A stretch of 64,000 nt of DNA from positions 62,001 to 126,000 of the forward strand of contig CAMVPB010000002.1 in NCBI GenBank assembly GCA_947169285.1, in the 5' to 3' direction. This document shows positions 1,341 to 41,900 of this stretch, in pieces; within the stretch, counting starts at the first letter, position 1; each line of letters opens with the position of its first letter. Made by a program: the position numbers and the translations under genes. The notes under the pieces are model-generated. The model was given only the letters and a program-made list of their open reading frames with translations, did not search any database and had not been told where the DNA came from. The DNA comes from an uncultured bacterium. Lineage in GTDB: Bacteria > Bacillota_I > Bacilli_A > RF39 > UBA660.

Positions 1341-2942
1341 ATGGAACAAAATGAATTAAGTAAATCAAATAAAATAAAGATAATAATAGTAACTACATTA
1401 ATATTTTTAGTAGCAATAAGTGGAATATCATATGCATATTTTACAATACAAGTAGTAGGTAATGATACTGCTTCCTCAATGAGACTAACAACCGCAAATT
1501 TAAGTTTAGTCTACAATGATGTACAAATAATATCAGATGAATACATAACACCAGGGTGGAGTGATACTAAAACACTAACAGTAACAAACAATGGTAATCA
1601 AGCAGTAGATTATATAATAAAATTTAGAGAACTACAAAATACAATAATAAATGGAGAATTAGTAATGTCTGCAACATGTGCAGCATCAACTGGTACTTGT
1701 GATAATTTACCAGAGAGAGCAATACACTCAGCAAGTACACAAATAACAAATGCATATATGTATGGGCCAATAAGTATACCAGTAGGAGTAACGCATACTT
1801 ATACAGTAACAGTTACATTTAAAGAGACAGGATCAAACCAAAACTATAATCAAAATAAATCATTCATAGGAACACTTAACATAGGAGATGGAACTCCAAC
1901 AAGAGAAGATTTATTTGAATATACAGTATCAAACGATCAAGTAACAATAACTGATTTTAAAGGATTGACAGTAACATATGACATAGATACCGAACAATGT
2001 GAATCACAATTTCAAGAAGATTTCCCTTGGACTGCGGAAGAAGTACACAATTTTTGCTTTGGTACAGGTGATGATCCCAAATACGGGCTTACTTTAGAAC
2101 AATGGCTTAAAGGTAAAGTTGCAGATATACCATCTGATGAATGGCAAGATTATGGAGTAACAAATATTAATTTAAGTTATCCAGACCCAACTGATATAAT
2201 AATACCTTCAACAATTAACGGAAAATCAGTTACAACAATAGAGAATTATGCATTTTCTTATAATCAATTAACCTCAGTAGTGATCCCAAATAGTGTTACA
2301 TCAATAGGTAGTCAAGCATTTTATAATAATCAACTAACCTCAGTAGTGATCCCAAATAGTGTCACATCAATAGGTAGTCAAGCATTTTCTAGTAATCAAT
2401 TAACCTCAGTAGTGATCCCAAATAGTGTTACATCAATAGGTAGTCAAGCATTTTATAATAATCAACTAACCTCAGTAGTGATTCCAAATAGTGTCACAAC
2501 AATAGGTTATGGTGCATTTTCTAGTAATCAATTAACCTCAGTAGTGATCCCAAATAGTGTCACAACAATAGGTTATGGTGCATTTTCTTATAATCAATTA
2601 ACCTCAGTAGTGATTCCAAATAGTGTCACATCAATAGATGATGATGCATTTTCTTATAATCAATTAACCTCAGTGGTAATCCCAAATAGTGTTACATCAA
2701 TAGATGATGATGCATTTTCTGATAATCAATTAACCTCAGTGGTGATCCCAAATAGTGTTACATCAATAGGTATTCAAGCATTTTATAGTAATCAACTAAC
2801 CTCAGTAATAATAAAAGGTAAGTCATCATCAAGTGATTTTGATGTATATGAAAGTAGAATATGGGGATGGGCAAGTGGTGTAACATGTGTTAAAAATAAT
2901 ACAAGTAATGTAACTAATGGATGTATTAAATGGGGAGCATAA
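1341..2942 (+). CDS. Surface protein: SipW-dependent-like signal/N-terminal module plus BspA-type leucine-rich repeats
   Basis: N-terminal hydrophobic segment followed by YAYFTIQVVGNDTASS (SipW-cognate signal-like); repeated NQLTSVVIPNSVTSIGxxAF units typical of LRR_5/BspA-like proteins. Confidence 0.85.
   Translation: MEQNELSKSNKIKIIIVTTLIFLVAISGISYAYFTIQVVGNDTASSMRLTTANLSLVYNDVQIISDEYITPGWSDTKTLTVTNNGNQAVDYIIKFRELQNTIINGELVMSATCAASTGTCDNLPERAIHSASTQITNAYMYGPISIPVGVTHTYTVTVTFKETGSNQNYNQNKSFIGTLNIGDGTPTREDLFEYTVSNDQVTITDFKGLTVTYDIDTEQCESQFQEDFPWTAEEVHNFCFGTGDDPKYGLTLEQWLKGKVADIPSDEWQDYGVTNINLSYPDPTDIIIPSTINGKSVTTIENYAFSYNQLTSVVIPNSVTSIGSQAFYNNQLTSVVIPNSVTSIGSQAFSSNQLTSVVIPNSVTSIGSQAFYNNQLTSVVIPNSVTTIGYGAFSSNQLTSVVIPNSVTTIGYGAFSYNQLTSVVIPNSVTSIDDDAFSYNQLTSVVIPNSVTSIDDDAFSDNQLTSVVIPNSVTSIGIQAFYSNQLTSVIIKGKSSSSDFDVYESRIWGWASGVTCVKNNTSNVTNGCIKWGA
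2262..2789 (+). repeat. 66-bp tandem repeat array (8 full 22-aa LRR units plus a partial ninth)
   Basis: Units beginning aatcaa(t/c)taacctcagt(a/g)gt... recur every 66 bp with near-identical DNA. Confidence 0.9.
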
Positions 2943-2944
2943 TT

Positions 2945-2967
2945 AAAGCCGATTATTTGGCTTTTTT
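2945..2967 (+). terminator. Intrinsic terminator after LRR surface gene
   Basis: aaagcc-gattattt-ggctttttt hairpin with T-run. Confidence 0.6.
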
Positions 2968-3011
2968 CTTATGTTGAAGTAAATAATTATATTTGATATA
3001 ATCTATTTAAG

Positions 3012-4109
3012 ATGGTGGGTAATATGAGAAGTGTGTATATACATATTCCTTTTTGTAAAAGTATTTGTTCTTACTGCGATTTTTGTAAGATGATTTATAG
3101 TGAGTCTTGGGCTGATACTTATTTAGATGAATTATCTGTTGAAATTGATAATTATTATGAAAATGATGAAGTTGGTACTATATATATTGGAGGAGGTACT
3201 CCATCATCATTAAATAATAGTCAATTAATTAAACTATTTGATATTATTAAATCTAAGTTTAATTTAAATCATTTAAAAGAGTTTACTTTTGAAATGAATG
3301 TAAATGATATAAATAATGAATTATGCAATATTTTAAAAAGTAATGGTATTAATAGAGTAAGTGTTGGAGTAGAAAGTTTTGATGAATTTAATTTGAAATT
3401 TTTAAATAGAAAACATAATAAAAAAGAAATAATTAATAACATTAAATTATTAAAGAGTTATGGGTTTAATATTAATGTTGATTTAATATATGCTCTTCCA
3501 ACTGAATCTTTTAGTACTTTTAAAAGTGATTTAAATCAAATAATTAAGTTAGATGTTAATCATATAAGTACATATTCTTTGATTATTGAAGAAAATACTA
3601 TGCTATATAAAAACAATATTAAGAGTATTGATGAAGAGTTAGATTATAAGATGTATGACTATGTATGTAAGAAATTAAAATCTAAAGGATATAATCATTA
3701 TGAAGTAAGCAATTTTTCTAAAGATGGTTATGAATCTATCCATAATTTAACTTATTGGAATAATAATGAATATTATGGTTTTGGTCTGGGTGCTTCAGGA
3801 TATATAAATGGTGTTAGATATGATAATACTAGAAGTTTAAATAAGTATATTAATCATGAGTATAGATTAAATGAGTTTATTGTATCTAAAAAAGAGGATA
3901 TGGAAAATGAGTTAATATTAGGGCTTCGTAAATTATCTGGTATTAATGTTTATAGTTTTTATGAAAAATTTAATGAAAATATTCAGGATGTTTTTAATAT
4001 AAAAGATGTTGTTAAAAAGGGCCTAATTAAATTGGATGGTAATTTTTTGAAAATACCTGAAGATAAAATTTATATTATGAATGAAATAATAAATAATATT
4101 ATAAAATAA
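3012..4109 (+). CDS. hemW: HemW-like radical SAM protein (coproporphyrinogen III oxidase-like); start may be 3024
   Basis: SVYIHIPFCKSICSYCDFCK (CxxxCxxC), YIGGGTPSSL, RVSVGVESF; synteny lepA-hemW. Confidence 0.92.
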   Translation: MVGNMRSVYIHIPFCKSICSYCDFCKMIYSESWADTYLDELSVEIDNYYENDEVGTIYIGGGTPSSLNNSQLIKLFDIIKSKFNLNHLKEFTFEMNVNDINNELCNILKSNGINRVSVGVESFDEFNLKFLNRKHNKKEIINNIKLLKSYGFNINVDLIYALPTESFSTFKSDLNQIIKLDVNHISTYSLIIEENTMLYKNNIKSIDEELDYKMYDYVCKKLKSKGYNHYEVSNFSKDGYESIHNLTYWNNNEYYGFGLGASGYINGVRYDNTRSLNKYINHEYRLNEFIVSKKEDMENELILGLRKLSGINVYSFYEKFNENIQDVFNIKDVVKKGLIKLDGNFLKIPEDKIYIMNEIINNIIK

Positions 4110-4111
4110 AA

Positions 4112-4139
4112 AACCTATTAAAAAATAGGTTATTTTTTT
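4112..4139 (+). terminator. Intrinsic terminator
   Basis: aacctatt-aaaa-aataggtt followed by T-run. Confidence 0.65.
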
Positions 4140-4140
4140 A

Positions 4141-4231
4141 TGGCGGAGTAGGAGAGATTTGAACTCTCGCACCAGTTTCCCGGTCTACACCCTTAGCAGG
4201 GGCGCCTCTTCAGCCACTTGAGTACTACTCC
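4141..4231 (-). tRNA. tRNA-Ser (GCU), CCA encoded
   Basis: Reverse complement GGAGTAGTACTCAAGTGGCTGAAGAGGCGCCCCTGCTAAGGG...GAGAGTTCAAATCTCTCCTACTCCGCCA; acceptor GGAGTAG/CTACTCC, anticodon loop CTGCTAA, long variable arm. Confidence 0.95.
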
Positions 4232-4327
4232 GTAACTACTTAAATATAATACACTATTTTTCTTTTTATGTCAATTTATAATATTTACAAAAACTATTAT
4301 TTATTATAAAATTATATTGGTGATAAT

Positions 4328-4765
4328 ATGAAAAAAGGTTTTACTTTAATTGAGCTATTAGCAGTCATTATTTTAATTGGTGTATTAATGGTATTTTTAG
4401 TACCAAATGCATTAGAAACTTTTGGTTCTAACAAAAATCAGCTTACTAGAATTCAAAAAGATCAAATAAAAGAATCGGTAGATTTATATCTTAATGATTA
4501 TTGTATTAACCCTATATCTGATTGTTATCAATGCCCTTTTGAAACAGAATATAATGAATTAGAAGATAAAATTGTTATTAAATACAATCAATCTAACTCA
4601 ATTTCTTTAAATGAATTAGTGGAGTTTGAGAATGCTTGTAATGAGAAAACAAGTTATATAGATAAATCAATAATAAGTAATTGTGATAAGACAAAATCTA
4701 TAAAATTTACTTCTAATGGTGAAATAGATCTTTCTGAAATAACTTGTAATTTTGACAGAAAGTAA
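4328..4765 (+). CDS. Type IV pilin-like / pseudopilin with prepilin N-terminal motif
   Basis: MKKGFTLIELLAVIILIGVLMVFLVP prepilin cleavage/methylation motif. Confidence 0.88.
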   Translation: MKKGFTLIELLAVIILIGVLMVFLVPNALETFGSNKNQLTRIQKDQIKESVDLYLNDYCINPISDCYQCPFETEYNELEDKIVIKYNQSNSISLNELVEFENACNEKTSYIDKSIISNCDKTKSIKFTSNGEIDLSEITCNFDRK

Positions 4766-7758: not shown

Positions 7759-8595
7759 ATGATAATAAATGGTAAAGAAGTAGCTTTAAGAATATCAAAT
7801 AAAATAAAAAAAGAAATTAAATCATTAAATGAAAAATTAACCTTATGTGTTATTGAAATTGGTGAAAATGAAGCAAGTAAAATTTATATTAATCAAAAAG
7901 AAAAGAAATGTAATGAGTTGGGTATTAATTTTAAATTGATTAAGTTTAATGAAAATGAATTAGAAAGTAATATTGAAAAAGAGATAATTAATCTTAATAG
8001 AGATTCTAATATAACTGGTATTATTATACAACTACCTGTATCTAATAAATATAATATAAATAAATTAATAAATTTAATTGATCCTAATAAAGATGTAGAT
8101 GGCTTGACTGATGAAAATAAAATAAAATTATTAAATGAAGAAAAAGGTTTAATTCCGTGTACTCCATTAGGAATTATAGAACTTTTAAAGGTATATAATA
8201 TTAAAGTAAAAGGAAAAAGCATATCAATTATAGGTAGAAGTGATTTAGTGTCTAAGCCACTTTTTCATATGCTTTTAAATATGGATGCTACTGTTACAAT
8301 GTGCCATTCTAAAACAAAGAATTTAAAAAGTTTTACTAAAAATGCTGATATTTTAATAAGTGCAACAGGAAAACCTCATATAATAAAAAAAGATATGGTG
8401 AAAGATAATTCCATTATAATTGATGTAGGTATTAGCAGAGTAAATAATATATTATATGGTGATGTTGATTTTAATAATGTTAAAGATAAAGTAAAATATA
8501 TAACGCCAGTTCCTGGTGGGGTAGGCCCTATGACAATTATAATGCTTATGAAAAATGTTTTAGAAGCCTATAAGAAACAAAAAAATAGTAAATGA
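7759..8595 (+). CDS. folD: Methylenetetrahydrofolate dehydrogenase/cyclohydrolase
   Basis: GIIIQLPVS, DVDGLT, SIIGRSDLVSKPLFHMLL, YITPVPGGVGPMTIIML. Confidence 0.96.
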   Translation: MIINGKEVALRISNKIKKEIKSLNEKLTLCVIEIGENEASKIYINQKEKKCNELGINFKLIKFNENELESNIEKEIINLNRDSNITGIIIQLPVSNKYNINKLINLIDPNKDVDGLTDENKIKLLNEEKGLIPCTPLGIIELLKVYNIKVKGKSISIIGRSDLVSKPLFHMLLNMDATVTMCHSKTKNLKSFTKNADILISATGKPHIIKKDMVKDNSIIIDVGISRVNNILYGDVDFNNVKDKVKYITPVPGGVGPMTIIMLMKNVLEAYKKQKNSK

Positions 8596-8607
8596 TTACT
8601 ATTTTTT

Positions 8608-8715
8608 TTATGAAAATATAAATGCTATAACTCCTGAGAACAAACTTAATACCATTACTATAAGTAGTATCCAAAGAGCTATTTTTTTTATTCTTTCTCT
8701 AGTTTTCTTTTTCAT
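8608..8715 (-). CDS. Small single-TM protein (35 aa), not in supplied ORF track
   Basis: MKKKTRERIKKIALWILLIVMVLSLFSGVIAFIFS*: basic N-terminus plus one TM helix; reminiscent of DUF4044-type small proteins (family not verified). Confidence 0.6.
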   Translation of the reverse strand: MKKKTRERIKKIALWILLIVMVLSLFSGVIAFIFS

Positions 8716-8770
8716 AAATACCTCGTAAAATATTATATCATATTTTAAAAAATATCAAATATAATTAAGT

Positions 8771-9358
8771 ATGAAAAAATTTAAAAATAAGAAAATATTG
8801 TTATCTTTTATTATATTATTTTTAATTGGACTAGCTTTTGGATTAATATTTAATTTTTATATAAGTGGTATTGATAGAACACTTATAAAAAAAGAAATGA
8901 CAGAGTATTTTTTAATTATTAAAAATAATTTATCTTATAGTAAAGGATTAATAAAAAGTTTTAAAACTAATATGCTATATATTACTTTAATTTGGGCTAT
9001 AGGAATTATACCATTTTTATTTTTAGTAAATTATTTTATAGTCTTTTATAAAGGATTCTTAATAGGATTTTCAGTATCTTCAATTATAATGATATATAAA
9101 TTAAAAGGATTACTAGTTTCATTAATATTTTTATTTCCTCATGAATTTATTAACATATTTATATTTATTACTTTATCTGTTTCCTCAATAAAATTCTCAA
9201 AAAAAATATATAATAAAATAAAAAGTAATAATGTTGTTAATCTTAAGAAAGAATATATAGATTATGTAAAAATTTATATATTATTTATTGTTATCTCTAT
9301 AGTAAGTAGTTTATTAGAAATATTTTTTAATTCACTTTTAATAAGACTTGTGATATAA
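8771..9358 (+). CDS. SpoIIM-like integral membrane protein
   Basis: Multi-TM, KTNMLYITLIWAIGIIPFLFLVNYFIVFYKGFLIGFSVSSII...GLLVSLIFLFPHEFI fits the SpoIIM family pattern. Confidence 0.7.
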   Translation: MKKFKNKKILLSFIILFLIGLAFGLIFNFYISGIDRTLIKKEMTEYFLIIKNNLSYSKGLIKSFKTNMLYITLIWAIGIIPFLFLVNYFIVFYKGFLIGFSVSSIIMIYKLKGLLVSLIFLFPHEFINIFIFITLSVSSIKFSKKIYNKIKSNNVVNLKKEYIDYVKIYILFIVISIVSSLLEIFFNSLLIRLVI

Positions 9359-9384
9359 TTAAGCGCGGAAAGGAGTAGATAGTT

Positions 9385-33848: not shown

Positions 33849-34148
33849 TTATTTGAATAAATCCGAATGACTACCAATCCTTAATGCAATTAAAACTAAC
33901 TTGTCTTCAATTATATTATAAATAAAAAGCCAATCAGGTTCAATATGACATTCATTACATCCCGAATATTTACCAGATAGTATATGGTTTTTATATTTTA
34001 AATCTAATGTTTCACCAGAAGAAAGTTTTTCAATTATATCATATAGTTTTTTTATATTTTTACCTTGACTTTTTGCTTTTTTTAAATCTTTTTTAAACTT
34101 GGATGTATAATTTATTTTATACTTCATCATCATTTTCCAAACTATCAA
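33849..34148 (-). CDS. YafQ/RelE-type toxin of a type II toxin-antitoxin pair
   Basis: YTSKFKKDLKKAKSQGKNIKKLYDIIEKLSSGE...LSGKYSGCNECHIEPDWLFIYNIIEDKLVLIALRIGSHSDLF. Confidence 0.92.
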   Translation of the reverse strand: MIVWKMMMKYKINYTSKFKKDLKKAKSQGKNIKKLYDIIEKLSSGETLDLKYKNHILSGKYSGCNECHIEPDWLFIYNIIEDKLVLIALRIGSHSDLFK

Positions 34149-34407
34149 TAAAATCTTTCATAGAAGTATATCCTTCTTCTGACTCAGCTATCATAAATCC
34201 TTCTCTTATAGCTTCTTTTGTTTCATCATTATAATCATCATAAGTAAGTTCAAAAGGCAATTTCTTTTCTAAACACACCTTTTTTAAAAACATGTTTATA
34301 CCAACACTCATATTAATACCAAAACTATCTAGTATTTTTTTAGATTCATTATATACATTACTATTTACTCTAACACATACTATTTTATCCTTCATTTTTA
34401 TCACCAT
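34117..34407 (-). CDS. RelB/DinJ-type antitoxin
   Basis: VCVRVNSNVYNESKKILDSFGINMSVGINMFLKKVCLEKKLPFEL; overlaps the toxin start by 32 nt. Confidence 0.9.
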   Translation of the reverse strand: MVIKMKDKIVCVRVNSNVYNESKKILDSFGINMSVGINMFLKKVCLEKKLPFELTYDDYNDETKEAIREGFMIAESEEGYTSMKDFIDSLENDDEV

Positions 34408-34466: not shown

Positions 34467-37001
34467 CTATTTTATTTCTTCTCTTTTTCCTTTTATTTCA
34501 TATAATAAATTTAAGGCTTCAATCGGTGTTACTTCATTTGGATTAATACCATCAATAAAATCATATAAAGGATTTTCTTTTTTTTCTATTAATTCAAGTT
34601 CAACTTGTTTAATTACTTTCTTTCTCTTTTGATGCCCTTCATAATTATGTAATAATTCATCTGCTCTTTCAATTACTTTATCAGGAAGATTCGCAAGCTT
34701 AGCGACATTTATACCATAACTTTTATCAACAGCACCATTTTTTACTTTATGTAAAAATCTAACGTTACCATTTTCTTCATATATCGATACATGAACATTT
34801 TTAATACCATCAAAAGTATCAGCCATTTTAGTAAGTTCATGATAATGAGTTGAAAATAATGTCTTACATTTAATATTGGTTTCAATATACTCAATTATTG
34901 AACCAGCAAGGCTCATTCCATCATATGTTGAAGTACCTCTTCCTAATTCATCAAATAATATCAAACTATTTTTGGTAGCATTTTTAAGTGCAGTAGCACT
35001 TTCTTTCATTTCTACCATAAAAGTGGATTCTCCACCCACTAAATCATCTGATGCTCCTATTCTTGTAAATATCTTATCAATTATAGGAAGATTTGCTTTT
35101 TTAACAGGCACAAATGAACCAATCTGATTAAGTATTATTATAATAGCTAACTCTCTCATATAAGTTGATTTACCACTCATATTAGGTCCGGTAATAAGTA
35201 GTATATTAGTCTTTTCATCCATTAAAACATCATTAGGTGTATATTCTTCTTTAATAACGCTTTCAACTACTGGATGTCTACCATCTTCTATATCAATAAT
35301 TCCATTTTCATTAATACTAGGCTTTACAAAATTATTTTCTTCAGCTACAGTCGCATAAGACTGCATAACATCATAAAAAGCAACTTTAGAGGATACAACT
35401 TGTAGTTCATGAATATATTTTTTTATTTCTTCTTTAATTTCATTAAATATTTCATATTCTAAATTATTAAGTCTTTCTTCAGCATTTAATATTAAATCTT
35501 CCTTTTCTTTTAAAAGCGGACTTACATACCTTTCAGAATTAGTAGTTGTTTGCTTTCTTTCATATTTAAAATCTTCCGGTATATTCTTAACTTGACCTTT
35601 ACTAATTTCAATATAATAACCAAATACTTTGTTATACCCAACTTTTAAAGTAGATATTCCAGTTCTCTCTCTTTCATCACTTTCAAATTTAGATATAAAG
35701 TCTTTACCATTTTTTCTAATATTTCTAAGTTCATCAACTTCACTATTATATCCATCTTTAATTAAATTACCTTCTTTTAATAAAATTGGTGCATTTTCAT
35801 TAATAGATTTATCTAATAATGTAACAAGTTCAGGAAAAGTACCAATTTCTTCTAAATTTAATTCTTTAAGAATTAAATTAATATCAGGAAGTACACTTAA
35901 ACTCTTTTTAAGCTGTAATAAATCTCTAGCATTAACGTTGTTACACACTATTTTACCAGTTAATCTTTCTAAGTCATATATCTCATACAAGTATGTTTTA
36001 AGTTCACTCTTATATAAAAATTCTTTAATCAATAATTCAACAATATTTTGTCTTTTAATAATTTCATCTTTATTAAGTAGTGGAGATATTATATAACTTT
36101 TTAAAAGTCTACTTCCCATTGCTGTTTTAGTTTTATCTAAAAACCAAAGTAAACTGTTTACTCTATCTTTTCCCCTAATTGTTTCAACTAATTCAAGATT
36201 TCTTACAGTTTCAATACCAAGTTCCATAAATAACTTAGTATCAACTATTTCCAAATTTTGAAAATGATTTAATTCTTTCTTTTGATTATTAATTAAATAA
36301 GATAAGACTATTTTAGTATTATCTATTAATTTAGAATCATTTATATTATTAAAAATATTATTATAATTAGTATCTATTATATTATCTAATATAGATATAA
36401 ATACATTATAATTAAATTTAAGTTCATATAATATATCCTTATCAAAAGAAGAATTAACAACAACTTCTTTAATATTTAAATTATTGATATAGCTAATTAA
36501 TTTATTCTTGTCATGTGATAAATAGCAAGCATAAACTTTACCACTTAAAAGATCTGCATATGAAAATATATAATTTAAATAATTATCTGTTATACTTGCA
36601 ATAAAGTTAAAATCATGTTCATTTAACGCTTCAGTATTAGTTAAAGTTCCTTTACTTACTACTTCAATAACCTCTCTTTTAACAATCCCTTTAGCAGTTT
36701 TAGGATCTTCTACTTGCTCACAAATCGCAACCTTATACCCTTTATCAACTAATTTTTGAATATAAATATTAGATGCATGATGAGGCACTCCACACATTGG
36801 TACTCTTTCTTCAAGCCCAGCATTCTTACCAGTTAAAGTAAGCTCTAATTCATGAGAGGCTATTTCAGCATCTTCAAAAAACAATTCATAAAAGTCACCT
36901 AATCTATAAAAAAGTAATGTATCTTCATATTCGCTTTTAGTTTTAAGATACTCCTTCATCATCGGACTAACAGAATCTATATTTACTTCATTTCTTTTCA
37001 T
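34467..37001 (-). CDS. mutS: DNA mismatch repair protein MutS
   Basis: SPMMKEYLKTKSEYEDTLLFYRLGDFYELFFEDA, LLITGPNMSGKSTYMRE, LFDELGRGTSTYDGMSLA. Confidence 0.97.
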   Translation of the reverse strand: MKRNEVNIDSVSPMMKEYLKTKSEYEDTLLFYRLGDFYELFFEDAEIASHELELTLTGKNAGLEERVPMCGVPHHASNIYIQKLVDKGYKVAICEQVEDPKTAKGIVKREVIEVVSKGTLTNTEALNEHDFNFIASITDNYLNYIFSYADLLSGKVYACYLSHDKNKLISYINNLNIKEVVVNSSFDKDILYELKFNYNVFISILDNIIDTNYNNIFNNINDSKLIDNTKIVLSYLINNQKKELNHFQNLEIVDTKLFMELGIETVRNLELVETIRGKDRVNSLLWFLDKTKTAMGSRLLKSYIISPLLNKDEIIKRQNIVELLIKEFLYKSELKTYLYEIYDLERLTGKIVCNNVNARDLLQLKKSLSVLPDINLILKELNLEEIGTFPELVTLLDKSINENAPILLKEGNLIKDGYNSEVDELRNIRKNGKDFISKFESDERERTGISTLKVGYNKVFGYYIEISKGQVKNIPEDFKYERKQTTTNSERYVSPLLKEKEDLILNAEERLNNLEYEIFNEIKEEIKKYIHELQVVSSKVAFYDVMQSYATVAEENNFVKPSINENGIIDIEDGRHPVVESVIKEEYTPNDVLMDEKTNILLITGPNMSGKSTYMRELAIIIILNQIGSFVPVKKANLPIIDKIFTRIGASDDLVGGESTFMVEMKESATALKNATKNSLILFDELGRGTSTYDGMSLAGSIIEYIETNIKCKTLFSTHYHELTKMADTFDGIKNVHVSIYEENGNVRFLHKVKNGAVDKSYGINVAKLANLPDKVIERADELLHNYEGHQKRKKVIKQVELELIEKKENPLYDFIDGINPNEVTPIEALNLLYEIKGKREEIK

Positions 37002-37077: not shown

Positions 37078-37455
37078 ATGAGCCTAAAAAACATGAGAAG
37101 ATTTTTTCAATTGGCAAAAAGACAGACAGTGTCTGTCCAATCAAAATGCTCTTGGAGTCATTTTTGCGAATTGCTTAAGTTTGATGATACTGATAAGATT
37201 GGTTATTATATTAACATCGCTTCTAAACAAAATTTATCAGTCAGAAAACTTAGAGAAAAAATCAAATCAAATGAATATGAAAAATTAAGTGATGCTACTA
37301 AAAGCAAAATAATAAATAAAGAAAAAATTTCTATTAAAAATGATTTACTTAATCCAATTATAATTAATACTAATAATAAAAATATAGATACATTTAATGA
37401 AAAAAATATTAATTTTATAATAGCAATTATAGGAATCGAGGCAAAATATAAATGA
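37078..37455 (+). pseudogene. N-terminal fragment of a DUF1016/YhcG-like PDDEXK nuclease protein
   Basis: SLKNMRRFFQLA...CSWSHFCELLKFDDTDKIGYYINIASKQNLSVRKLREKIKSNEYEKLSDATK matches the DUF1016 N-terminal pattern, but the nuclease half is absent. Confidence 0.65.
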
Positions 37456-37754: not shown

Positions 37755-39014
37755 TTAAATAATTATATATTTAATATTATTAATATTAAGGTAATTAAAT
37801 ATTCTAATACTATTTTTAATACTTAACTTAATAGTATTATTTTTTATTATTAAAGTATCATTTCCATATATTATATATTTATTTTTTATTTTCATAAAAA
37901 TAATACTATCAAGATTAATTGATTTATAATATTTATATTTTTCTTCCAAATTCATTTTAAAGCACTTATTAAACTTTATAATTTTACCTAAATATCCATA
38001 ATAACTACCAAATGAAAGATAATATTTAAGTAAATCATATTTTTTTAAGTTAGCTAATTTTCTATTAATTTTTTTAATTGTTTTTTTATTATAATAAATT
38101 TTAAATTTATTATTTACTACTTTATATTTGTATCCCAAAAAAGAAATACCATTACTCAAATTAGTAATAGTACTTTTGGGATTTACTCTTAAATTTAGTT
38201 CACTTATTTTAACACTTAAGATTTTAAAAGCCTTCTTTAAGTCCTCTTTATTAGTATCAAGAATAATAAAATCATCCATATATCTAATATAATATTTAAA
38301 TCCTAGTACCTCTTTAATATAGTGATCAATATTATTAAGATAATAGATTGCTAAGAATTGAGAAGTCATTGCTCCTATACTAAGACCAACACCCTCATTA
38401 TAATAAGGAATATCAGTTTTAAATTTCTTATTTAAAACTGATATTCTTTCATTAATATATGGTTTATTTGTTTCATTAATTATTATTTTAATTAAATCAA
38501 TAACATATCCATCTTTTATATCGCACTCTAGCATTTTAATTAATATATTATGATTTATATTATAAAAATATTTACTTATATCCACTTTTAAACAAAATAT
38601 CTCTTTATTAGGCTCTTTAATCCTAATTTCATTAATATAGTTTTCTATCAATTTATATGCATAAGCACTACCTTTTCCTTTTCTAGTCGCAACATTGCTA
38701 TCTATTAATTTATTATCTAAATAAGGTATTAAATAATATTTAACAACAAAATGATTAACTATTTTATCAAAAACAGTTTGACTCATTACAAGTCTTGCTT
38801 TAGGTTCAAATATTAGAAATAATTTATATGGTAATGGTCTATAAGATTTATTTAATAAACTATTATAAATATTAAATATATTTGTACCTAAATTTAAATT
38901 AAATCTAAAAATAGCATTTCTATTTTTACAAGTCTTTTTTACTACACTCCACACATTATAAATATTATTAAAAGACAAATGCTTAAAATAAATGTTATCT
39001 ATTTTCTTTTTCAT
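37755..39014 (-). CDS. DGR-type reverse transcriptase (ORF opens at 39035; likely start 39014)
   Basis: ADISKYFYNINHNIL-like palm (VDISKYFYNINHNILI), DGR-type GLSIGAMTSQFLAIYYLNNIDHYIKE, catalytic YIRYMDDFIIL, NLSNGISFLGYKYK. Confidence 0.95.
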   Translation of the reverse strand: MKKKIDNIYFKHLSFNNIYNVWSVVKKTCKNRNAIFRFNLNLGTNIFNIYNSLLNKSYRPLPYKLFLIFEPKARLVMSQTVFDKIVNHFVVKYYLIPYLDNKLIDSNVATRKGKGSAYAYKLIENYINEIRIKEPNKEIFCLKVDISKYFYNINHNILIKMLECDIKDGYVIDLIKIIINETNKPYINERISVLNKKFKTDIPYYNEGVGLSIGAMTSQFLAIYYLNNIDHYIKEVLGFKYYIRYMDDFIILDTNKEDLKKAFKILSVKISELNLRVNPKSTITNLSNGISFLGYKYKVVNNKFKIYYNKKTIKKINRKLANLKKYDLLKYYLSFGSYYGYLGKIIKFNKCFKMNLEEKYKYYKSINLDSIIFMKIKNKYIIYGNDTLIIKNNTIKLSIKNSIRIFNYLNINNIKYIII

Positions 39015-39357
39015 TATATTTATTTTTCCAAGCATAAGTCATATTTTTAATATTAGTTAAAAAAAACATAGAATTTTCTAAGTATTTCCTTCTTTTAGGT
39101 AATAATTCATATAAATTATTAGTAATAACATCAATCATAGAAATAGTTACAATCATTTCATTAATGTATTTTAATCTAATATTTCCTTTATTATATTGTG
39201 CTTCTAATAAATATCTAATTAAATTATAACATTCATCCATTAAATGAATTCTTAAATCTCTATGGACTGCAGGTATTTCATTAGAAACATACTTTCTAAT
39301 ATATTTTTCATACTTTACTACTTCATTATAAAGATTAAAATCACTACTCTGATGCAT
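38995..39357 (-). CDS. avd: Avd-like four-helix-bundle accessory variability determinant (likely start 39357)
   Basis: MHQSSDFNLYNEVVKYEKYIRKYVSNEIPAVHRDLRIHLMDECYNLIRYLLEAQYN...; AAGGAG RBS upstream of 39357; between TR and RT. Confidence 0.85.
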   Translation of the reverse strand: MHQSSDFNLYNEVVKYEKYIRKYVSNEIPAVHRDLRIHLMDECYNLIRYLLEAQYNKGNIRLKYINEMIVTISMIDVITNNLYELLPKRRKYLENSMFFLTNIKNMTYAWKNKYNEKENR

Positions 39358-39478
39358 AGAACTCCTTAAAAAAAATAGTAATTTGCTACCACTCATTCAT
39401 AAACAAATGATAGCCTACACTATTTGTTTATTTTGAACTAAATAGTCCATAGAACTATACCTGTTTCACAATAGAAAA

Positions 39479-39518
39479 GCTAAACTTCACCATAACAAAA
39501 AAATATTATAAGTTTAGC
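39479..39518 (-). other. Inverted repeat in the spacer between TR and avd
   Basis: gctaaactt (39479-39487) / aagtttagc (39510-39518), 9-bp perfect stem just 3' of TR on minus strand. Confidence 0.65.
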
Positions 39519-39534
39519 AAATAAATTTGGAAAA

Positions 39535-39649
39535 TACGGGACGCGCACCGTTAGCATTATTGACATTGTTGTTACTGATACTGCCACTAGTGTTCACGTT
39601 ACGACCATTAGCATTGTTGTTGTTAAAATAGTTAGGAGAAACAAGCCAA
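39535..39649 (-). repeat. DGR template repeat (TR)
   Basis: 115-nt copy of the target gene's 3' segment. Minus strand reads TGG CTT GTT TCT CCT AAC TAT TTT AAC AAC AAC AAT GCT AAT GGT CGT AAC...; rich in AAC/AAT codons. Confidence 0.95.
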
Positions 39650-39725
39650 ACCAAGAATAAGCCTATCCACGTTTTATATGGTATAATCCTAAGTTAAACA
39701 TTTAGTCTAACCCAAATTTAGATTT

Positions 39726-39756
39726 ACACAAATTCATCAATCAGATGAATTTGTGT
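39726..39756. other. Perfect 13-bp hairpin between TR and target gene
   Basis: acacaaattcatc-aatca-gatgaatttgtgt. Confidence 0.7.
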
Positions 39757-39769
39757 ATTTGGTATTTTT

Positions 39770-39794
39770 ATATTAAAACCCTTCGGTTTAATAT
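39770..39794. other. Hairpin (10 bp with one bulge)
   Basis: atattaaaacc-cttc-ggtttaatat. Confidence 0.6.
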
Positions 39795-39821
39795 CATATT
39801 TTTTATTATCATTTTCTTCTC

Positions 39822-39845
39822 TCGCCTGAAAGGGTTTTCAGGCGA
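39822..39845. other. GC-rich perfect 10-bp hairpin with 4-nt loop downstream of target gene stop
   Basis: tcgcctgaaa-gggt-tttcaggcga; no T-run on the minus-strand side. Confidence 0.7.
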
Positions 39846-39881
39846 ATATACAAGAGTAAAGAGTGGCGCCTATAAACAACT

Positions 39882-41900
39882 CTATTCTATTACATATGGA
39901 TTAGATAAAGATCCATCACCTGTTATAGGCCTGTTAGATGGCGCCAGTGAAACTACGGGACGCGCACCGGCAGCAGTATTGACACTGTTGCCACTGACCC
40001 TGCCACTAGTGTACACGAAACGACCAGCAGCATTGCTGAAGTAAAAAGAGTAAGGAGAAACAAGCCAATTATTTTGACCAGTTTTTCTTATATTATTATT
40101 GTTTATAAGATTCATTTCTGGAACCGTAGCTAATCCTATTGGATATTTAATCTGTGCATTTGCATTCGAAACACTAAATTTATCTATGTTATTTGTACAT
40201 CCTAATGTTGTTACTGTACCATAATTGTTAAATTGTAAAGCTGTTGATTTAGAGCCATTTTTTGACCATCCACCTAAATTGCTTATACTTCTATCATTAC
40301 AATATACTGCATCTTGGTCTATATAATCTTCTGCATCTGTTCCGTATATATTATTATAATACCAATTTTCTAAATATGATTTTATTGCTGAATCATGTGT
40401 ATTTGTACTATTTGTTAGCATTTTACTTATTGCATCTTCTATTTTATCTCCACCTGTTAGTTCAATATAGTAATTATTATAGTAATAATATCTTACTTTA
40501 CCATCTGTACATGTTGAGGAAGTTGTATTACATGTATAATGATGGGTATCATTATACTCTGTTCCAGTTTCTCTCAATTCATAATTACTTTCATTCCAAT
40601 ATACATCATTTCCCATTATTGAATCACTTGCTGGAGCTGAGCTTCCTACATATTCATATGCAGTAAATCCATATTTATATCCTGCATATGCTGGGGATAG
40701 ATAATTTACATTAAATGAAGATGTTCCTATTTGGGCATGCTGGGTATCACCTATTGTGTAGCTTGTATACCACGCATTATTAGCAGTTGTTCTATGTGGA
40801 GTATTCACATAATATAGTGTTGTACATGTTGAAGGAGTATTACCATTTTTACATGTATATTTCCCTAATATATATTCTTTATCACTACTATTACTCCAAT
40901 TTTTTACTACTGGATTTACTAATGTAAACTCTCCAGTAGTTGTATTATATGTAAATGTATCTGAATACATATAGTTGCCTATCATAGAGCCTGATGCACC
41001 ATTCGTTCCTATTATTCCTTTATGATTATAATCAGTACCAACATCTTGTCTTAAGCAATTACCACTTCCATCTGGGTCTCCATTATATATTAATTTTATT
41101 CCACCTGTATCTGTTGTTCTAAGTATTTGCCAGCAAAATCCTGCAAATTTAACATTTATTTTATTATTTAATAATTCATTTGCTTGAGTTGCATCATTTG
41201 CAGTACTTGTTTTTATATAATAAACTGTTTTTCTTGCTGTCTCTCCATATGTATCATTTGTGTCATTTCCTGAATAAGTAGAAGCATATGTACCAGCTGT
41301 TGCTAAGTTTTTTACAACTTTATAAAGTGGATGTTCATCTGCTCCTTCTGATATGTTTAATGTTCCTCTAAATGATTTTCCTTGATTATAGTTTTGATTA
41401 GAATATGTTTCTATAAATGATACTGTTACTGTATATGTATGTGTTTCTCCTGGAGCTATTTCTATATTACTTTTAACACGTATATTACTTGAAACTGTTG
41501 TTCTTGTTGGTATTGGTTTATTAATTGTTGGACATGTACTTCCTGATTTATTTGATGAACATGTTGCGGATAATACTAATTCATCATTTATTACTCCATT
41601 TAATAAATCTCTCCATATGATATTATAGTATACTGTTTTATTACCATTATTATATACTGTTAATGTTTTAGAACTACTTGTCCATCCTGGCGTTATTGCT
41701 TGATCTGATAATATTTGTACATCTGTATACACCAAACTCATATTAGCTGTTGTTAAATTTATAGAAGAGGCAGTATCATTACCAGTTATTTGTATACTAA
41801 AATAAGCATAAGTTAATCCACTTACGGCTACAAATATTAATATTGCAGTTAATACTATTATTTTTATTCTATTACTCTTATTAAGGTTGTTTTGTTCCAT
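39882..41900 (-). CDS. DGR target: SipW-dependent-like surface protein with C-terminal DUF6273-like variable domain (672 aa)
   Basis: N-terminus MEQNNLNKSNRIKIIVLTAILIFVAVSGLTYAYFSIQITGNDTASS parallels the 1341 gene; C-terminus NWLVSPYSFYFSNAAGRFVYTSGRVSGNSVNTAAGARPVVSLAPS is encoded by the VR. Confidence 0.92.
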   Translation of the reverse strand: MEQNNLNKSNRIKIIVLTAILIFVAVSGLTYAYFSIQITGNDTASSINLTTANMSLVYTDVQILSDQAITPGWTSSSKTLTVYNNGNKTVYYNIIWRDLLNGVINDELVLSATCSSNKSGSTCPTINKPIPTRTTVSSNIRVKSNIEIAPGETHTYTVTVSFIETYSNQNYNQGKSFRGTLNISEGADEHPLYKVVKNLATAGTYASTYSGNDTNDTYGETARKTVYYIKTSTANDATQANELLNNKINVKFAGFCWQILRTTDTGGIKLIYNGDPDGSGNCLRQDVGTDYNHKGIIGTNGASGSMIGNYMYSDTFTYNTTTGEFTLVNPVVKNWSNSSDKEYILGKYTCKNGNTPSTCTTLYYVNTPHRTTANNAWYTSYTIGDTQHAQIGTSSFNVNYLSPAYAGYKYGFTAYEYVGSSAPASDSIMGNDVYWNESNYELRETGTEYNDTHHYTCNTTSSTCTDGKVRYYYYNNYYIELTGGDKIEDAISKMLTNSTNTHDSAIKSYLENWYYNNIYGTDAEDYIDQDAVYCNDRSISNLGGWSKNGSKSTALQFNNYGTVTTLGCTNNIDKFSVSNANAQIKYPIGLATVPEMNLINNNNIRKTGQNNWLVSPYSFYFSNAAGRFVYTSGRVSGNSVNTAAGARPVVSLAPSNRPITGDGSLSNPYVIE
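39954..40068 (-). repeat. DGR variable repeat (VR) at 3' end of target CDS
   Basis: 115-nt gap-free alignment to TR (offset 419 nt), 19 mismatches, 18 at template adenines. Confidence 0.95.

Follow-up and report, generated by a model that had tools for sequence, protein, structure and literature searches.

The window analyzed here is a stretch of 64,000 nt from an uncultured bacterium (contig CAMVPB010000002.1 of assembly GCA_947169285.1, positions 62,001-126,000 of the forward strand), the GTDB lineage of which is Bacteria; Bacillota_I; Bacilli_A; RF39; UBA660. The assembly comprises 0.98 Mb in 16 contigs and represents a small, AT-rich genome. On the minus strand of the window, a target gene with a VR at its 3' end is followed by a TR, an Avd-like open reading frame (ORF) and a reverse transcriptase (RT) gene. 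This arrangement had been proposed in a sequence-only reading of the same DNA, and the coordinates were confirmed in the sequence. Judged by its sequence, this is a complete, apparently intact cassette of a diversity-generating retroelement (DGR), which is genuine and belongs to a kind of system already known. Several features that the earlier reading did not contain emerged when related loci were compared, i.e., a hairpin 3' of the VR, a structured RNA 3' of the TR, an extension of the RT, a base difference at the homing end, and a site without DGR in a sister species.

Genomic Setting

The cassette is flanked by dtd, relA, and secDF on one side and by mutS and rnhC on the other side, and these flanks identify the element as chromosomal and not as part of a prophage. 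In a sister species (G144), dtd, mutS, and their outer neighbors are found at 85-86% nucleotide identity with synteny kept. Between dtd and mutS, however, that genome carries another surface-protein gene, encoding 842 aa, and no DGR, and the search of the family genomes for RT relatives gave no match in it. Since the same dtd-mutS site is thus occupied by a different surface-protein gene without a DGR, the cassette and its target have probably been gained, lost or exchanged here as one block. A search of the whole assembly revealed no second RT, and the TR, when used as query against the genome, matched one VR only.

Some other genes in this region deserve mention. A 125-aa ORF between the RT gene and mutS (37078-37455, plus strand) resembles by eye a part of proteins of ~315-323 aa encoded in the same genome (L015, L019) and probably represents a truncated gene next to the cassette. 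A pair of small ORFs adjoining mutS (33849-34407, minus strand) has the look of a toxin-antitoxin module (YafQ/RelE-like plus partner), named so by appearance only. In the sister species, mutS is frameshifted into ORFs of 695 and 167 aa (L127, 6544-9115), which may be an artefact of the assembly or a genuine mutation.

TR, VR, and the Adenine Pattern

The VR (39954-40068, minus strand) is located at the 3' end of the coding sequence of the target gene, and the noncoding TR (39535-39649, minus strand) lies near the RT gene. As claimed before, the gapless alignment of the two spans 115 nt and contains 19 mismatches, which was confirmed to the base, at an offset of 419. The claim that 18 of these mismatches are at TR adenines, of which there are 35, also held, and all three substitutes are found (seven A>T, seven A>G, and four A>C). 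The only mismatch not confined to TR adenines is a T>G change. The probability of at least 18 of 19 mismatches at adenines is 1.5e-10 (hypergeometric). Adenine-specific mutagenic homing is the hallmark of DGRs. The TR adenines are located at codon positions 1 or 2 of the VR frame, except for the last one (39535, codon position 3), and the adenine pairs at positions 1 and 2 form 14 AAY codons. Since any substitution of these adenines turns AAY into NNY, which is never a stop codon, mutation cannot create stops.

RT relatives were detected in 90 of the 193 sampled genomes of the family (E <= 1e-10), a number that counts RT matches, with TR and VR checked for part of them. A repeat finder retrieved TR/VR pairs in many of the related loci, and the order target with VR, TR, Avd, and RT is kept in most of those inspected. 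TR adenines account for 518 of the 537 mismatches over 33 related pairs, a pooled count that is descriptive since the repeat finder selects for adenine bias. Some loci have more than one candidate VR per TR (L082, L088, L105), and another one (L073) is a multi-target locus, in which one DGR is surrounded by three target-like proteins (2516-3520, 3587-4609, and 8361-9362) that resemble each other and vary at their C-termini. A search of the available literature for DGRs in Tenericutes or RF39 yielded nothing relevant.

Reverse Transcriptase and Avd

The RT gene (37755-39014, minus strand) had been described with a YMDD motif and the DGR-type motif IGAMTSQ. Both are present, the latter reading SIGAMTSQ, in an ORF without frameshift. 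Whereas the extent of the ORF, open from the ATG at 39035 (426 aa), is as described, the ATG at 39014 is the more probable start. SIGAMTSQ is a variant of the usual PIGNxTSQ, thus of the IGxxxSQ type, and is common to the closest RT relatives. The protein matches RVT_1 in a Pfam scan, and its best match in the PDB is the Bordetella DGR RT (8ub7, 1e-21), as compared to 4.5e-10 for a group II RT. In a tree of 34 rows containing group II RTs and DGR-type RTs, it falls within the DGR clade, including phage RTs, and the group II intron RTs split off at 100/100; the phylogeny that had been suggested as a check is therefore in agreement with the earlier assignment.

The RT is 426 aa long, vs. about 490-519 aa in most close relatives. 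In all nine long RTs scanned, the C-terminus is a MutS domain I (PF01624) above the Pfam cut-off, and the extension of the relatives matches MutS by hhalign (77%, E 2e-5). In the window, no Pfam match to PF01624 was found at the RT C-terminus, and the comparison with the relatives indicates that the extension (37758-37973, minus strand) is a degenerate, truncated MutS_I-like domain. Missing from it are ~8 residues in one block, the motif of the FY(K/R) type, and the helical part at the C-terminus; what is left at the motif is shortened and degenerate and reads NKYIIY. In MutS, an F-x-E motif contacts mismatches, and the real MutS of this genome keeps it (GDFYELF). At this position, the RTs of the relatives mostly have F-x-K/R, and also F-x-Y/I. 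A connection between the mutS gene next to the cassette (34467-37001) and the MutS_I domain of the relatives was considered as well and was rejected as coincidence, because no mutS is present in the flanks of the relatives (at most about 6 kb) and because mutS of the sister species, which has no DGR at this site, is located near dtd-relA.

The Avd-like ORF (38995-39357, minus strand) encodes a protein of 120 aa. The ORF itself was recognized correctly before, but not its start at 39396; the ATG at 39357, preceded by an AAGGAG site, is the most likely one. The NCBIfam Avd model matches the protein with an E-value of 0.03, far below the cut-off of the model, and the Avd profile gave no match in the PDB by sequence alone. 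A family profile of the ORF, however, matches a set of four Avd-type proteins (BPP-1, Lagaffe, Magia, and Halomonas) in hhalign at 96% and an E-value of 1.4e-9. AF2 confidently predicts a four-helix bundle (pLDDT 92), which superposes on the Avd chains of 4DWL and 8UB7 with a TM of ~0.8. Since the Foldseek E-values are weak (0.01-0.1) and S23-type related proteins match the predicted fold equally well, the identification of this accessory protein as Avd is based on its place in the cassette and on the profile match, in combination with the predicted fold.

Cis-Acting Elements

The TR/VR homology extends a few bases past the ends noted earlier. The putative IMH (39949-39969, minus strand) consists of the invariant sequence GGTGCGCGTCCCGTA common with the TR, followed by a G (39953) where the TR has a T (39534), and then by a shared TTTC. 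The homing end is GTTTC in the VR and (A/T)TTTC in the TR not only in the window but also in six closely related loci (L028, L032, L033, L035, L057, L058); this difference is absent in L063. The fixed difference suggests an IMH/IMH* distinction.

Past the stop codon of the target gene, ~105 nt 3' of the VR, a hairpin or cruciform TCGCCTGAAA-ACCC-TTTCAGGCGA is present (39822-39845, minus strand) with a stem of 10 bp and a loop of 4 nt. Most related loci have comparable hairpins, located ~80-127 nt beyond the VR. In 25 of 35 loci, the hairpin was better than in shuffled sequences (p <= 0.05), with a few of these 25 being located elsewhere, and the median stem was 10, vs. 4-5 in the upstream control. 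In nearly all of nine loci compared, the loop block AAAACCCTTT is kept and the stems vary on both sides.

Directly 3' of the TR, a conserved structured RNA is encoded (39431-39526, minus strand). It forms a long hairpin, in which 10 of 15 pairs have changes on both sides, a value that was reached in none of 500 shuffles and is far above slid controls. When ten loci were used to train a covariance model, it gave matches adjoining the TR outside the training set as well (e.g., L036, L065, L063, L064, and L069; E 0.0003 to 0.1). A match with an E-value of 0.11 in a locus without DGR (L128) is probably due to chance, and the weaker matches of the model therefore rest on their position. A further hairpin in the spacer, GCTATCA...TGGTAGC (39385-39414, minus strand), has a stem that covaries in L028, L057, and L058 by inspection. 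Between the target gene and the TR, there is a 14-bp inverted repeat (39725-39757), which is terminator-like on the plus strand, and, upstream of the TR, a 5' leader motif GGGTTAGACTAAATGTTTAACTTAGGATTATAC (39681-39713, minus strand), which by eye, unscored, is similar in close relatives. A search of Rfam revealed no relevant family.

Target Protein

The target gene (39882-41900, minus strand) encodes a protein of 672 aa. Its N-terminus comprises a transmembrane (TM) segment and a camelysin/TasA-like region just below the Pfam cut-off, and this N-terminal anchor is common to many paralogs in the genome. Among these paralogs (L017, L018 and others), the same anchor is combined with C-terminal domains of several kinds, leucine-rich-type repeats being one of them. 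The VR-bearing C-terminal domain is DUF6273-like, with a score of 17.9 bits at a cut-off of 23.5; the match is stronger in the targets of relatives (18 of 26 members, best 6.5e-10). DUF6273 is a reported target domain of DGRs (PMC10743442, PMC11792537) and was modeled as a C-type lectin fold (PMC10743442). By analogy, a C-type lectin fold and a ligand-binding function may be assumed for the variable domain of the target. The AF2 model of the target is poor (pLDDT 47), and a Foldseek search with this model returned only meaningless matches; comparison by hhalign with a small set of known DGR targets revealed no profile similarity. Relatives of the target without a DGR, in the same genome (L011) and in the sister species (L126), share 68-72% nucleotide identity with it before the VR and 45-50% inside the VR.

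Proposed Mechanism and Alternative Explanations

By analogy with studied DGRs, the TR and its 3' spacer would be transcribed into a structured RNA that is bound by RT and Avd. The RT would copy the TR into cDNA with misincorporation opposite adenines, and the cDNA would replace the VR in the terminal part of the surface-protein gene. The 3' IMH block common to TR and VR, as well as the hairpin downstream of the VR, would guide this step. With its fixed base difference at this end, the TR may itself be spared as a target. The outcome would be up to 14 randomized AAY codons in the DUF6273-like domain, exposed outside on a membrane-anchored protein, with altered ligand binding. Taken as a whole, a chromosomal DGR, probably operating by such homing, accounts for the locus with high confidence.

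The anatomy could also be that of a recently decayed DGR, which is intact in appearance but has lost homing through loss of the MutS_I-like module of the RT or because the TR is not transcribed. The shortened RT, from which most of the extension is gone, and the single T>G mismatch would fit such decay. On the other hand, the core, the motifs, and the reading frame of the RT are intact, and TR and VR are nearly identical outside the adenines. Moreover, in RT branches without any extension (314-384 aa), the TR/VR pairs show the A-only pattern cleanly, so such a domain is not generally required, and a related locus with a shortened RT of 459 aa (L062) has 21 of 22 mismatches at adenines. Decay thus appears unlikely, and the DGR is probably functional. 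Present or recent activity in the species, already inferred in the sequence-only reading, is likely because of the intact RT, the clean A-only pattern, and the conserved cis-elements.

That the RT belongs to a group II intron, a retron or a defence system, with the repeats being an unrelated duplication or a product of gene conversion, is hardly conceivable. Generic profiles (group II, Drt, and Cas1-RT) do match the protein, but below their cut-offs, whereas the best PDB match is a DGR RT and an Avd is encoded next to it. This reading is refuted by the tree, which places the RT outside the group II RTs at 100/100, and by the adenine pattern, given its chance probability of 1.5e-10; Rfam finds no group II intron RNA either. 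Only slightly less improbable is that the cassette is part of a prophage and the target a phage receptor-binding protein. Many gut DGRs, notably those with DUF6273 targets, are indeed phage-borne (PMC10743442, PMC11792537), but the flanking genes dtd, relA, secDF, mutS, and rnhC, the synteny with the sister species, and the many paralogs of the target with the same anchor all argue against it.

A more far-reaching proposal, which we consider rather doubtful, is that the DGRs of these small-genome Bacilli employ a variant retrohoming machinery, consisting of an RT, a separate Avd, a fused and altered MutS domain I, and a far-placed hairpin with a different loop. In such a machinery, the MutS domain I with its mismatch-contacting Glu replaced may handle the heteroduplex of mutated cDNA and VR; if so, the window would represent a natural loss-of-module case. 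The fusion of RT and MutS_I, with its natural loss variants, could reveal the role of a domain of the mismatch-binding type in an error-making retroelement. Apart from this proposal, the chromosomal DGR is of interest because a host with a genome of ~1 Mb encodes and keeps such a mutator of a surface protein, which is of a kind common in its family, and the related loci supply two strongly covarying elements, the RNA and the hairpin, for functional testing.

Comparison With Known Systems

The element resembles the DGR of phage BPP-1 in the adenine-specific TR/VR difference, the Avd-type four-helix protein, the RT motifs, the VR at the 3' end of the target gene, the shared 3' block, and a hairpin 3' of the VR with a 4-nt loop and a free stem sequence. 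Efficient homing of the Bordetella phage DGR depends on a hairpin of this sort (PMC3240598). The hairpins of phage DGRs have stems of 7-10 bp, GRNA loops, and a spacing of 4-34 bp from the VR (PMC3240598), whereas the hairpin in the window differs from this consensus in its ACCC loop and its distance of ~105 nt. Other differences are the gene order, which is mtd-avd-TR-brt in BPP-1 and target-TR-Avd-RT in the window, the target, which is a chromosomal surface protein, and the C-terminal extension of the RT.

The accessory MSL was reportedly defined in an NAR survey in 2018. The association of a MutS domain I with DGRs, as seen in the relatives, is not new, since MSL (MutS-like, PF01624) is named as a DGR accessory, with reference to earlier work, in PMC10053308. 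Unlike MSL, the domain of the relatives is fused to the C-terminus of the RT alongside a separate Avd, has F-x-E mostly replaced by F-x-K/R, and is degenerate in the window.

In DUF6273 targets of Faecalibacterium phages and other gut phages, the VR is likewise located at the C-terminal end of the domain (PMC10743442, PMC11792537). In contrast to these, the domain in the window, with its own match below the Pfam cut-off, is part of a bacterial membrane-anchored protein. The searched text of Roux et al. (2021; PMC8144416) contains no mention of the lineage of the window, but the cellular DGRs with membrane-anchored targets described there are likewise host-encoded, and their targets are likewise anchored by a signal or TM segment and equipped with a C-terminal VR.
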